Shown one piece after another: positions 2,649-47,410 of a stretch of 62,925 bases of DNA; position 1 is the first letter of the stretch; each line of letters opens with the position of its first letter. The translations under genes and the position numbers were made by a program. The DNA is from Bdellovibrionales bacterium RIFOXYC1_FULL_37_79 (GTDB lineage: Bacteria > Bdellovibrionota > Bacteriovoracia > Bacteriovoracales > Bacteriovoracaceae), in contig MEQB01000040.1 of assembly GCA_001770015.1 (NCBI GenBank), positions 1 through 62,925 of the forward strand, written 5' to 3'. Under the pieces are notes generated by a model that worked only from the letters and a program-made list of their open reading frames with translations, had not been told where the DNA came from and ran no database searches.

Positions 2649-3710
2649 TTAGTAGCTTTTAAATTGGTTAATAAAACGTAAATCCGCGCCATGAATATTT
2701 CTGATATCATCAATTCCAAAACGCATCATCACCAAGCGATCAAGGCCCATCCCAAAGGCAAAACCATTCCATATCTCAGGATCAATTTTACCGGCCTTTA
2801 AAACGTTCGGATGAATCATGCCACAAGGAAGTAGCTCAAGCCATCCAGATTGTTTGCACACACTACAGCCCTTGCCTCCACAGATCAGGCATTTAACATC
2901 CAGCTCGAAACCAGGTTCCACAAAAGGAAAAAAGCCAGGACGCAGTCTGACTTCCACATCCTTTTTAAATATTTCTCGAAGGGCCACTTTCATAAAATAA
3001 ATCAAATTAGCGACTGAAATATTTTTATCTACCAACATCCCTTCCACTTGGTGAAAGACTGCTTCGTGGGAGGCATCGATTTTTTCCGCCCGAAACACTT
3101 TTCCCGGAACAATAAATCTAAAAGGAGGTTTGCGCTTTAGCATCCCTCTGACTTGAACGCAACTGGTATGCGTTCGCAGTAACCGTTTCTTCTCCTCGGT
3201 CGAGTCCTTATCATGAAACCAAAATGTATCTTGCATATCTCTGGCGGGATGGCTTGGAGGAATATTGAGCGCATCAAAATTATAAAACTCCTCTTCAATA
3301 TGTGGGCCATCCAAAACTTCAAATCCCATGGATACAAAAATATCCTCAATTTCTCTTTTAATCGCACTTAATGGGTGAAACCCCGCATGCATGGTATCAG
3401 TTTGTTTAACATAGTCCCTATAGGTAATGTCTATCTGACTAGTTTTTAATGTTTCATTGATCTCACTACTTTCGATTTCACTTAACTTATGGGTAATCAG
3501 GTCTTGAATTTGATCCTTGACGATATTGACTTTGGAACCTATTTCTTTTTTCTCTTCCAAAGAAGCATTTTTAAGGCCTGACATAATATCCGCAATCGGA
3601 CCTTTTTTCCCAAGATACTTGGATTTTATATCTAAAACTTTTTCTTTTTGGGTTACTCCGGATAAATCTTTTTTCAGTTCATCAAGCAATTGATCTAATT
3701 TGTGTGACAT
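2649..3710 (-). CDS. pheS: Phenylalanine--tRNA ligase alpha subunit
   Basis: This is the catalytic alpha subunit of Phe-tRNA synthetase, a class II enzyme. Visible features are the N-terminal coiled-coil arm, motif 2 around FRAEKIDASHEAVFHQVEG, a four-cysteine insertion (CLICGGKGCSVC) and motif 3 (FGMGLDRLVMMRFGI). The frame is open further upstream to 3857. The start at 3710 is preferred because MSHKLDQLLDEL is where PheS homology begins, because TAAGGA lies just upstream, and because the longer version would run into the terminator at 3797-3841. The protein is then 353 residues, normal for PheS. Confidence 0.96.
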   Translation of the reverse strand: MSHKLDQLLDELKKDLSGVTQKEKVLDIKSKYLGKKGPIADIMSGLKNASLEEKKEIGSKVNIVKDQIQDLITHKLSEIESSEINETLKTSQIDITYRDYVKQTDTMHAGFHPLSAIKREIEDIFVSMGFEVLDGPHIEEEFYNFDALNIPPSHPARDMQDTFWFHDKDSTEEKKRLLRTHTSCVQVRGMLKRKPPFRFIVPGKVFRAEKIDASHEAVFHQVEGMLVDKNISVANLIYFMKVALREIFKKDVEVRLRPGFFPFVEPGFELDVKCLICGGKGCSVCKQSGWLELLPCGMIHPNVLKAGKIDPEIWNGFAFGMGLDRLVMMRFGIDDIRNIHGADLRFINQFKSY

Positions 3711-3762: not shown

Positions 3763-3796
3763 CTATCCAACTTGAAGTAAGAATTCATGAAAGACA

Positions 3797-3841
3797 AAAA
3801 AAAAAGGCCAAATTTGCAGTCGATCCACTGCAAATTTGGCC
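3797..3841 (-). terminator. Rho-independent terminator of the upstream RNA
   Basis: A perfect 15-bp inverted repeat (3806-3820 with 3827-3841; arm GGCCAAATTTGCAGT) with a 6-nt loop is followed on the minus strand by an uninterrupted run of nine T residues (3805-3797). The plus strand has no T-run. It therefore ends a transcript arriving from above 3841, not pheS, which begins further downstream. Confidence 0.85.
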
Positions 3842-4236
3842 TGTATGAAAACATCACACGAAGTGAATAAGTTGTTCCTAAAAAGGAATGTTTCTGTTTC
3901 CTACAAGTGCCAGGCCCTTAATACTTCCTCCTTGCGAAAAAGGCTACTGAGACCAACACACTTCCATGGATTCAAAAGAATGTACGAAAATTTTAAAAAC
4001 CAAAACTAGAAGCCTGGGAGCTTTCCCACATAACCTCCTCCAAAAAACCACCTTTTCCAAAAGAATACTCGCCATATTCCTTTGACCCGCTTGGTTACCC
4101 GACTGACGTCGGCAAAAAGTGGCCTTTTACCGTCTAGGCAGCTTACCAACCCATATCCGATCACTTAGGGCGAAGCTTTGTTCCTGGCCCTTTCGGCACC
4201 AGTCACCTTTATCTACGGGCTTTAATCAATAGTACT
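3797..4236 (-). ncRNA. Candidate structured non-coding RNA (riboswitch-like, about 440 nt)
   Basis: No protein gene fits these 440 nt, and the region ends in a strong minus-strand terminator. On the minus strand a hairpin capped by GAAA (4202-4184) is followed by CAAAGC and then CCTAAG (4169-4164) and TATGG (4155-4151). These are the two halves of the classical 11-nt GAAA-tetraloop receptor. Further hairpins include GAATA/TATTC and TGGGA/TCCCA. The order of a GAAA hairpin, CAAAGC and a CCTAAG/TATGG receptor recalls class I cyclic-di-GMP (GEMM) riboswitches. The size recalls merRNA, the abundant GEMM-type RNA of Bdellovibrio. The ligand core is not convincingly recognisable, and the helix closed inside the receptor is very short. 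The 5' end is an estimate. It could also be an unrelated structured RNA or a leader. Confidence 0.55.
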
Positions 4237-4430: not shown

Positions 4431-5462
4431 TCAAATACCGGCTGAAGTGAATTCGGCAGTATTGATTCTATTATAAAATGAAATCAATTCATCGCAACTG
4501 ACGGTAGCCGTCCCTCTTTTGCCAACCACCACGCCGGAAGCGCAATTACCCATCCATACCGCTTCTTCAAAGGTCCCTTTGGCCAAAAGTGCTGCGGTAA
4601 TGGTACTAATGGAGGTATCACCAGCTCCTGACACATCAAAAACTTCTCTGGCAACGGTGGGAATAGTCTTAAGTCGTCCATCTCCACCTCTATCCATGAG
4701 GGCCATTCCTCCTGCACCCAGGGTAATGACCAACATCTGCAAATCCAGTTTTTCCATTAGCGTATTGGCCACCTCCAAAAGATCAAAACTTCTGCCCCCC
4801 AACGATCTACTCATGGCAATTGCCTCGTCCTGGTTGGGCTTTAACAACATGGCCCCATGATAATATTCAGGGGGCGTCATCCGACCGGGGTCCACCGTAC
4901 AAATAACTTGCTTTTGGTTTGCCATTTGAATAATAGTTTGAGTCAAATTTTTTGAAAAGACACCTTTACTATAATCCTCTAAAATAATCGCACCATGGGC
5001 ATCCATCATCTTCTCAACATTTTGTAAAATACTTTTCTCAGAATGATTGTCCAGCATTTCCCTGGTTTCGTAATCGACTCTGCATATTTGTTGCACATTC
5101 GTGGTAATACGTTCCTTACAAGTGGTCATTCTCAGTTTGGACTCGATTATGCCATCCAAGGTTATATTGCTTTTTCTTAAAATACTTTTAAATAATTCTC
5201 CGTTAATATCTTTGCCAATAAGCCCACACAAAGTCGATTTTAAATTAAGGGTATTTAAATTATGCGAAATATTAGCGGCCATTCCCAGTTTGACCGTTTC
5301 TTCCTTGGCCTCCAAAACTGGTACCGGAGCCTCTGGAGAAATTCTTTTGACTGATCCCAACGTATATTTATCAATCCCAACATCCCCCACCACCAAAATC
5401 GGTTTACTTGTTTTAAAATTGTCCAATATATAAAAAAATCTTTCTTTAGAGATTAGATTCAT
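4431..5462 (-). CDS. hldA: D-glycero-beta-D-manno-heptose-7-phosphate kinase (HldE N-domain type)
   Basis: This is a PfkB/ribokinase-fold sugar kinase most like the kinase half of HldE/RfaE, which phosphorylates heptose-7-phosphate on the route to ADP-heptose for the LPS core. It begins with the family-typical ILVVGDVGIDKYTLGSVKRISPEAPVPV. It carries the ribokinase signature DVSGAGDTSIST with the catalytic aspartate near the C-terminus. There is no C-terminal nucleotidyltransferase domain, so this is the stand-alone HldA form (343 residues). The start at 5462 is chosen because AGGGG lies 6-7 nt upstream. It overlaps the end of the upstream glycosyltransferase gene by 17 nt, which suggests coupled translation in an LPS-core operon. 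Confidence 0.88.
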   Translation of the reverse strand: MNLISKERFFYILDNFKTSKPILVVGDVGIDKYTLGSVKRISPEAPVPVLEAKEETVKLGMAANISHNLNTLNLKSTLCGLIGKDINGELFKSILRKSNITLDGIIESKLRMTTCKERITTNVQQICRVDYETREMLDNHSEKSILQNVEKMMDAHGAIILEDYSKGVFSKNLTQTIIQMANQKQVICTVDPGRMTPPEYYHGAMLLKPNQDEAIAMSRSLGGRSFDLLEVANTLMEKLDLQMLVITLGAGGMALMDRGGDGRLKTIPTVAREVFDVSGAGDTSISTITAALLAKGTFEEAVWMGNCASGVVVGKRGTATVSCDELISFYNRINTAEFTSAGI

Positions 5463-6582
5463 GAACACCCCTATCATCAATAACTTTATTAATTATAAAT
5501 AATTCTTTTACATGAACCAAAACATCATCCACCTCAATTTTGGCCATGCATTTATAATAAAAACATTCTTCCCTAGCACAAAAAAATTGTTCACCACACA
5601 CCACATCTGGAATCAACACCCGGCATTTCTCATGGCTTCTGCTAAAAGGGCCCCAGCGCATGGCCGATTGGACTTTGATGGGGGAATAGATAGCAATCTG
5701 TGGTATATCCAAGCAATTTGCCAAATGAGTGGTGCCCGTACTAGGTCCTATAAAGAGAGTGGCATTCTTCAAAACTTTTAAATATTCCTTAAGCCCGAGA
5801 ACTCCACCATCATAAAAAAATATCTTCTTATTCAAATGTGTAAATTTATCATCCTGCAAATACCCTTTTATCTTGTTGATAAAGGGCAAATCCGCTTTGG
5901 TAAAGGAAACCACAAAAGTAAATCGACCAGGCCACATCTCTTCCATCTCAGACATCAGACTGGTGAAATTAAACATCGGCCAATTGAGCGTATGCCCCAC
6001 CATGCCCGGATGGATAATGATAATTTTCTCCCTCCACTCGATTCCTTGTGCCAGTACTCTTTGTTTCAATCGCTCTTTGGCATCCACAACGTCCTGACTT
6101 GGAATATTCAACAAGGGACGTAATTTTTCCCGGTCTTTAAATTGATATTTAATTTTGAATTTTTCCAAAAGCAAAAGATTATAATCACTTTCATGCATTT
6201 CCACCAAGGATCGTTTTTGTCTTATCGCATGATTGAGAAACACAAAACTTTGCCATTTTGACCGCAGCCCTCCCCTGAATTTAATTCCCTTCAACCAGGC
6301 AAAGAAACTGGGAAAATGACTTCCCGCCATGAAAAAATAGGCATCTATTTCATGTGAGAATATTTGCTTAAACGAATGAACCATGCGTGCAGGCCAATAA
6401 GCATGTCGATCCATCACCCAAATCTTGTCAACCCAGTTATAATACTCAAAAATATCCTTCGATTTATGGGATACCCAAAAAATGATTTCAGCGTCTGGAT
6501 GATGTTCTTTAATCAGTTGGGCAACCGGCAGGGTTAAAAGGGTATCACCAATGGCATCAGTTCGATTTATTACAATTCTCAT
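5446..6582 (-). CDS. Family 9 glycosyltransferase, ADP-heptose:LPS heptosyltransferase-like
   Basis: This 378-residue protein has the two hallmarks of GT9 heptosyltransferases (WaaC/WaaF/WaaQ). The N-terminal motif is RTDAIGDTLLTLPVAQLIK, and the C-terminal donor-binding motif is GPSTGTTHLANCLDIPQIAIY. It should transfer heptose or a related sugar onto inner-core LPS at the cytoplasmic face of the inner membrane. It sits between cmk (4-nt overlap at ATGA) and the heptose kinase gene (17-nt overlap), which fits LPS-core synthesis. A cluster of cysteines near the C-terminus (CGEQFFCAREECFYYKC) is common in this family. Which heptose position it modifies cannot be told. Confidence 0.88.
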   Translation of the reverse strand: MRIVINRTDAIGDTLLTLPVAQLIKEHHPDAEIIFWVSHKSKDIFEYYNWVDKIWVMDRHAYWPARMVHSFKQIFSHEIDAYFFMAGSHFPSFFAWLKGIKFRGGLRSKWQSFVFLNHAIRQKRSLVEMHESDYNLLLLEKFKIKYQFKDREKLRPLLNIPSQDVVDAKERLKQRVLAQGIEWREKIIIIHPGMVGHTLNWPMFNFTSLMSEMEEMWPGRFTFVVSFTKADLPFINKIKGYLQDDKFTHLNKKIFFYDGGVLGLKEYLKVLKNATLFIGPSTGTTHLANCLDIPQIAIYSPIKVQSAMRWGPFSRSHEKCRVLIPDVVCGEQFFCAREECFYYKCMAKIEVDDVLVHVKELFIINKVIDDRGVHESNL

Positions 6583-46333: not shown

Positions 46334-47410
46334 TTATCCATGTCTTTCAAGCAGTGGGCCATCTTGAAATAAAACTGGATTTTCCAACTCATTATTTCCT
46401 CTCACACAATTTCTTCCGGCACTCTTGGCCCTATACATTGCCTCATCGGCGGCACGTACCAACCCTTTGGCCGTAACCGTATTACTTCCCGGCCTGGTAA
46501 TGGAAAACCCCACACTCACCGTCCTTTTGGTTTCATCCTTGCCCATTTTGAAATGATAATTTTCAACCTCGGCCCTGATTCTTTCACAAAAGATTTTGAT
46601 CCCTTCCAGATTAGTCTGCGTCACCACTACCAGAAATTCATCACCACCAAAGCGGGCCCCCAGATCAATATTTCGCATATTGCGTTTTAAAATTTTTCCC
46701 ACTTCACTTAAAACATGACTCCCGAATAAATGGTTATGATCATCGTTGACGTCCTTGAAATGATCCATATCCAACATGATGACACCAATGGAGTGACTAA
46801 ACCTCTCCCCTCTGGCGAGTTCTCCTTCAATCTTTTGATACACCGACCTCATATTATAAAGTCCGGTCAGATCATCAATCTCAATTAACTTTTCCGTATC
46901 CCTTAATTTTTTTTCAGTATTTTTAAGCAGGGTGGTTTCACTTCCAATAATAACCCCCTCTTCAAAGTTATTGTATTTTTTCCCAACCACTTTGAAATAT
47001 CGATTCTCGCCCTCAATGACACTCAAAATTTCTTGAGAAAGACAGGCATCATGAATTTTAAAAAGTTCTTTGGCAAACTCATAAAATTTACTATCCTTGC
47101 TTTGAAATCCAATTTTTTTGCCCTTATATTCAGGACATTTCTGCCCCAGAGAACGATTGACTCCCTGATATTCCAGTTTATCCGTGATCCAGGAAATCGT
47201 ACAAGGCGCCAACTCGGCGACAATTTGTAATTTTTCAATTTTCTCCTTGAGCAACGCCAAATCGTAGCTCATTTCCAGAAAGCCTTTATCCACTTTCTCC
47301 AAAAAACCACCCAGCAATACCCTGGTATTTTCGTCCAGCATTTCTAAATTATTGGATTCTTCCAATAATTTAATCAAATCCTTGCTCTTAATATTCTTTC
47401 CCATAACCAT
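46334..47410 (-). CDS. Diguanylate cyclase with PAS-like N-domain and I-site
   Basis: This 358-residue protein makes c-di-GMP. The C-terminal GGDEF domain (about 175-340) has an intact GGDEF (255-259), the Mg/nucleotide motif DDLTGLYN, and an inhibitory I-site RNID (246-249) five residues upstream, so product feedback is expected. The N-terminal half (about 60-170) is a PAS-like sensor domain without TM helices, hence a cytoplasmic enzyme. Predatory relatives use c-di-GMP to choose lifestyle. The window also contains a riboswitch-like RNA that may respond to it. Confidence 0.92.
   Translation of the reverse strand: MVMGKNIKSKDLIKLLEESNNLEMLDENTRVLLGGFLEKVDKGFLEMSYDLALLKEKIEKLQIVAELAPCTISWITDKLEYQGVNRSLGQKCPEYKGKKIGFQSKDSKFYEFAKELFKIHDACLSQEILSVIEGENRYFKVVGKKYNNFEEGVIIGSETTLLKNTEKKLRDTEKLIEIDDLTGLYNMRSVYQKIEGELARGERFSHSIGVIMLDMDHFKDVNDDHNHLFGSHVLSEVGKILKRNMRNIDLGARFGGDEFLVVVTQTNLEGIKIFCERIRAEVENYHFKMGKDETKRTVSVGFSITRPGSNTVTAKGLVRAADEAMYRAKSAGRNCVRGNNELENPVLFQDGPLLERHG

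Follow-up and report, generated by a model that had tools for sequence, protein, structure and literature searches.

Organization of the locus

The window, i.e. the whole stretch of 62,925 nucleotides analyzed in this study, carries pheS and pheT on the minus strand, with a PfkB-family kinase (ORF 4431-5480) upstream on the same strand. Between the kinase and pheS, the initial annotation had described a structured RNA with a GAAA-capped hairpin, a CAAAGC motif, two halves of a tetraloop receptor and a terminator. All these elements were recovered on the minus strand at the same positions (Table 1). The terminator is slightly longer than the 15 bp first described, its 16-bp stem with a 6-nt loop occupying 3842-3805 before a run of nine T; 0.7 terminator-like sites are expected in the region by chance. 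The ATG of pheS is located at 3710, about 86 nt past the T-run, and the mechanically called pheS ORF of 402 amino acids merely begins upstream, at a GTG. No convincing frame covers the RNA, in agreement with the earlier statement that no protein fits. The conserved part begins at about 4221 and the terminator forms the 3' end, with a predicted gene length of roughly 430-450 nt.

Table 1. Features of the RNA locus and their positions in the window.
Feature	Position	Strand	Remark
Putative free-standing RNA gene, whole extent as initially annotated	3797..4236	minus	5' end approximate
Predicted aptamer, diverged c-di-GMP-I (GEMM) domain	4130..4221	minus	R2 score and in-register RF01051 matches of sister copies
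Possible closing helix, GCCCGT (4220-4215) with GCGGGT (4090-4085)	4085..4220	minus	moderate support
Equivalent of Vc2 G20, ligand contact	4207	minus	G in 43/43
P2	4180..4206	minus	covariation in 6/7 helix pairs
GAAA hairpin CTGGTGCCGAAAGGGCCAG	4202-4184	minus	
A at the Vc2 C44 position	4182	minus	opposite an invariant U (4148) of the P3 bulge
CAAAGC	4180-4175	minus	
Equivalent of Vc2 A47, stacking between the ligand's two guanines	4179	minus	A in 43/43
P3 with 11-nt tetraloop receptor CCTAAG/TATGG	4141..4176	minus	covariation
Receptor half CCTAAG	4169-4164	minus	
Receptor half TATGG	4155-4151	minus	
CC with equivalent of Vc2 C92, ligand contact	4137..4138	minus	CC in 43/43
Second conserved hairpin, with a 12-bp stem and GGCGA as loop (GGNGA in the family)	4057..4085	minus	
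Shine-Dalgarno GGAGGAGG (4041-4034) and short frame GTG GGA AAG CTC CCA GGC TTC TAG	4006..4041	minus	
Intrinsic terminator, 16-bp stem and T9	3796..3842	minus	

P2 starts with the pairs G4206-C4180 and T4205-A4181, followed by a tandem G-A and by the GAAA-capped stem (GAAA at 4194-4191). In P3, receptor positions C64, T65, A125, T127 and G129 are conserved. The inner helix of the receptor, previously described as short, is indeed short in the window copy, whereas in relatives the first apical pairs covary. A complement resembling ACCCG/CGGGT, which could close the domain, is found in many, though not all, copies. In about 33 of 43 copies, the hairpin 3' of the aptamer keeps its GGNGA loop on a stem that varies in sequence and still pairs.

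No sigma-70-like promoter was recognized just upstream of the window copy; in relatives from one genus, TTGACT...TATACT-like sequences were seen by eye upstream of the RNA. At 4377-4365, some 150 nt 5' of the aptamer, a 13-nt segment is perfectly complementary to the 3' strand of P3 (4149-4137). A complement of this length to that strand is absent from all other copies, and it is probably due to chance or specific to the window. A search for tRNA and tmRNA genes found none, and no match to the RNA was detected in viral contigs.

The 440-nt sequence gives a better fold than its shuffled versions (z = -4.3), much of which is due to the terminator; for the 200-nt core by itself, the effect is weaker, with z at about -1.8. 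The minimum-energy fold of the single sequence was discarded, being at odds with the covarying aptamer.

Conservation and identity of the aptamer

Sequence conservation provides the decisive argument for a real RNA. By blastn, a single clear homologue was detected (E = 4e-16, 70% over 195 nt), which belongs to a different genus of the family. A sequence pattern derived from this homologue and the window copy led to further copies. Six pattern matches (L031, L038, L041, L043, L045 and L046) lacked the rest of the aptamer, were mostly coding and look like chance. A covariance model made from eight copies (R1) gave one strong match each in some 40 of the 129 family genomes, and two in one contaminated assembly. 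A second model (R2) was built from 41 other copies, with the window copy left out. R2 recovered the window copy with 81.7 bits (E = 1.3e-18); R1 had helped to align the 41 training copies, so that this leave-one-out score tests the letters and not the alignment frame. No other R2 match was found in the window genome at E <= 0.1. Among the family genomes, at least 45 of 129 carry strong R2 matches, almost always as a single copy. Since nearly two thirds of the family genomes have no detectable copy, the function of the RNA is not universal in the family.

The initial annotation had proposed to look for compensatory base changes in relatives, and these are extensive over the 43 aligned copies. 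Standard pairs occupy 97% of the helix cells and both sides have changed in 16 of 20 pairs. The covariation score is 0.884, as compared to 0.27 for shuffled and at most 0.12 for slid controls; this alignment was fitted to the structure, and a MAFFT alignment of eight copies gave the same picture.

The proposed Rfam search gave a divided answer. Scanning the whole window returned nothing above gathering scores, and no RF01051 (c-di-GMP-I) match was found in the window's own genome. A relaxed scan of the locus produced chance-like matches only, the window copy being unreported even at E <= 10 and hence short of the RF01051 cut-off of 35 bits. Two sister copies, in contrast, came just short of this cut-off with 33.9 bits (E = 0.0028) and 29.9 bits (E = 0.027), both aligning with RF01051 full-length and in register. 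A few family members exceed the cut-off (36-45 bits), and not all of them are clearly of the window type. The weakest of the family matches (G096, G123 and G124) do not look like the window-type RNA, nor does G087, which is over the cut-off and has a 3' part without the conserved domain.

Conversely, when applied to other families, R2 found their RF01051 loci at matching positions, the best being L176 with 61.0 bits (E = 5e-13). With 51.9 bits in Rfam, this intermediate passed both models. The P2 and P3 stems, with their GNRA tetraloop and receptor, are supported by covariation and by the positions of the motifs. The window aptamer is thus almost certainly a diverged c-di-GMP-I (GEMM) aptamer; because the window copy scores under the Rfam cut-off, we file it as a diverged relative and not as a curated RF01051 member. 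The initial annotation had also considered a new RNA class, which would share just the GNRA tetraloop and receptor with GEMM. The low Rfam scores of the window copy and of most family copies would fit such a class, but the full-length, in-register and reciprocal matches, the intermediate passing both models and the conserved ligand-contact bases largely exclude it for the aptamer, leaving it extremely improbable.

Vc2 numbers were assigned by way of the Rfam alignment of the sister copies and the Vc2 sequence. The bases equivalent to the Vc2 ligand contacts G20, A47 and C92 (PMC4744006) are invariant in 43/43 copies, as are the neighbors corresponding to G21, C46, A48 and C93. By contrast, the interhelical Watson-Crick C-G pair (C44-G83 of Vc2), which all GEMM RNAs are reported to have (PMC4744006), is altered. 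Position C44 is occupied by an A in 43/43 copies, with a facing U in the P3 bulge in 42/43. A compensatory A-U in place of the C-G is plausible, with the register of the bulge uncertain by one base. By this comparison, the P2 internal loop and the interhelical pair are derived features of the window-family aptamer.

These derived features could point to a GEMM fold with a changed ligand, e.g. cGAMP or another dinucleotide. However, binding of cGAMP goes with G20A and that of c-di-AMP with G20A/C92U (PMC7288161), and neither pattern occurs in the window family, where G20, A47 and C92 are invariant; the G at the G20 position thus argues for c-di-GMP. The genome also encodes c-di-GMP signaling domains (4 GGDEF and 16 PilZ). 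A changed ligand is therefore very unlikely, and c-di-GMP is most probably the ligand of the window RNA. The contig of the RNA also carries one of the four GGDEF (diguanylate cyclase) domains, at 46409-46879 of the window. In view of the Rfam score and of the change in a defining tertiary pair, our claim for the window aptamer is descent from a c-di-GMP-I aptamer and a predicted function like that of one.

Relation to pheS

The RNA had been described as lying upstream of pheS, which holds for its position and does not extend to its function. Among the copies examined, about 40 of 43 lie downstream of the kinase, and pheS follows within about 1 kb on the same strand in 32 of 43. Together with the order of aptamer and then terminator, this arrangement is what would be expected of a cis-acting riboswitch leader, in which ligand-dependent termination controls pheS-pheT. 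But the RNA is divergent from pheS in one genome (L152), no pheS is found nearby in six others (L106, L111, L112, L113, L114 and L168), and the neighbors differ in other families. Moreover, pheS keeps a normal gap and start in genomes without the RNA. In family genomes with no detectable copy, the kinase stands almost directly before pheS (four examples) or before another gene. We know of no control of phenylalanyl-tRNA synthetase by c-di-GMP. A leader function is therefore quite improbable.

Terminator-like hairpins were found about 290-530 nt from the start of the aptamer in roughly 27 copies. The separate terminator, the divergent orientation in L152 and the lack of a nearby pheS in other genomes speak against a pheS leader, and the window RNA is very likely free-standing.

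In L189, L192 and L193, the gap between kinase and pheS contains an AGGAGG site and a GC-rich terminator-like hairpin, and the aptamer is unrecognizable. This gap is possibly a version of the RNA that has lost its aptamer.

Possible roles and comparison with known RNAs

A strong Shine-Dalgarno sequence followed by start-[Gly/Asp/Glu]-Pro-stop is located 3' of the aptamer in 27 of 42 family copies (L097-L103, L110, L111, L149, L151, L155-L159, L161 and L163-L172), as compared to 0.12 expected in shuffles, the count taking related sequences as they are, uncorrected for kinship. These mini-ORFs use all four Pro codons, several Gly, Asp and Glu codons and all three stops, with synonymous changes, which indicates coding rather than an RNA motif. 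The window copy has the Shine-Dalgarno sequence and a frame without Pro-stop. In other families, 8 of 34 loci have an ORF ending in DPPPE-stop, DPPPK-stop or similar on the 5' side of the aptamer; the antisense strand of the 34 loci contains none of this type. More such ORFs occur in further loci, mostly 100-125 nt before the GCAAAGC core. Shine-Dalgarno-led examples 5' of the aptamer are seen in L086, L087, L088, L090, L091, L185, L052, L063 and L070, and L091 has three DPPPE/DPPPK-type ORFs in a row.

According to Hayes 2002, as cited in PMC7246954, termination in E. coli can stall at a C-terminal proline. The Shine-Dalgarno sequence and minimal ORF 3' of the aptamer might cause ribosomes to be loaded onto the RNA and to pause there. 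That such engagement of ribosomes belongs to the RNA's function is possible, if somewhat doubtful. It is more speculative still, and on balance unlikely, that c-di-GMP-binding RNAs throughout the phylum deliberately engage ribosomes by combining an aptamer, a strong Shine-Dalgarno sequence and a very short ORF whose last codons form a proline motif that stalls termination, start-Gly/Asp-Pro-stop in the window family and DPPPE/K-stop in others. If true, a very abundant RNA would tie the c-di-GMP level to the holding of ribosomes or to its own stability.

Across Bdellovibrionota, 149 of 369 genomes match RF01051, with a single match per genome in all but one. In some families (L092, L095, L096, L182 and L183), the gene immediately downstream of the aptamer RNA resembles queE by eye, with a radical SAM motif (..RLTGCNLRC.YCDSAYAF..). 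In G146, which we take to be B. bacteriovorus HD100, the match (1073868-1073951, minus strand) is located inside merRNA. This RNA of 445 nt (1,073,741-1,074,185, minus strand) is massively expressed in attack phase, storage of c-di-GMP has been proposed as its role, and no evidence was found for its conservation beyond the Bdellovibrio lineage (PMC3627812). The published coordinates also contain a Shine-Dalgarno-led ORF of 12 codons (MRTHEHHDDELK-stop).

The window RNA would be made as a discrete transcript, and its aptamer would bind c-di-GMP. By analogy with merRNA, the RNA would hold the dinucleotide as a store, released on a change of cell state, instead of switching a downstream gene. We propose storage as the main role only tentatively. 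A pure store would not need to stay upstream of pheS, as 32 of 43 copies do, and this counts against it. Being free-standing and having conserved segments beyond the aptamer on its 3' side, the RNA could also act in trans as a ligand-controlled small RNA, pairing with target mRNAs through a seed region gated by the aptamer. However, the conserved 3' segment reads as a Shine-Dalgarno sequence and codons and not as a seed, and the abundance of merRNA argues for a structural role (PMC3627812), making a trans-acting RNA unlikely.

Altogether, the locus probably encodes a free-standing non-coding RNA with a diverged c-di-GMP-I aptamer in its 5' part and its own terminator, the counterpart of merRNA. 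The suggestion of a merRNA-like c-di-GMP-binding RNA, made in the initial annotation, is supported by the RF01051 matches of the sister copies, the reciprocal R2 matches, the invariant contacts and the single copy per genome across the phylum. For merRNA, the reservoir role is a proposal, and its reported conservation is restricted to Bdellovibrio. With single-copy loci of c-di-GMP-I found in most families of Bdellovibrionota, and with a derived subtype in the window family that escapes Rfam, such RNAs would be a standing part of c-di-GMP signaling in the phylum. Their conservation also singles out parts that can be tested, such as the short ORFs, which are not described in the merRNA paper.

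The c-di-GMP-II riboswitch (RF01786) shares with the window RNA the presumed ligand alone, having no sequence or structural relation to it, and was unmatched in all Rfam scans (window, locus and sister copies). With RF01051 of the Vc2 type, the window RNA shares P2, P3, the GAAA tetraloop, the 11-nt receptor, the CAAAGC junction, the equivalents of G20, A47 and C92 and the 3' UUGCCGA. Unlike RF01051, the window-family RNA has C-G or U-A as second P2 pair, a tandem G-A as P2 internal loop, an A for the interhelical C (43/43), an invariant U in the P3 bulge and no cis-regulated gene.

The resemblance to merRNA is closer in organization. Both RNAs appear to be free-standing, single-copy RNAs of similar size (about 440 nt for the window RNA, about 445 nt for merRNA) with a c-di-GMP-I aptamer, their own terminator at the 3' end, no dedicated downstream gene and a short Shine-Dalgarno-led ORF. 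They differ in aptamer subtype and neighbors, and the aptamer begins about 230 nt into HD100 merRNA whereas it is near the 5' end in the window RNA. Judged by size, copy number, aptamer, terminator and the lack of a dedicated downstream gene, the window RNA appears to be its family's counterpart of Bdellovibrio merRNA, a likeness that consists in the aptamer and gene-like traits, the flanking domains having been compared by eye only. The two may represent one rearranged ancestral RNA, or two RNAs sharing an aptamer.
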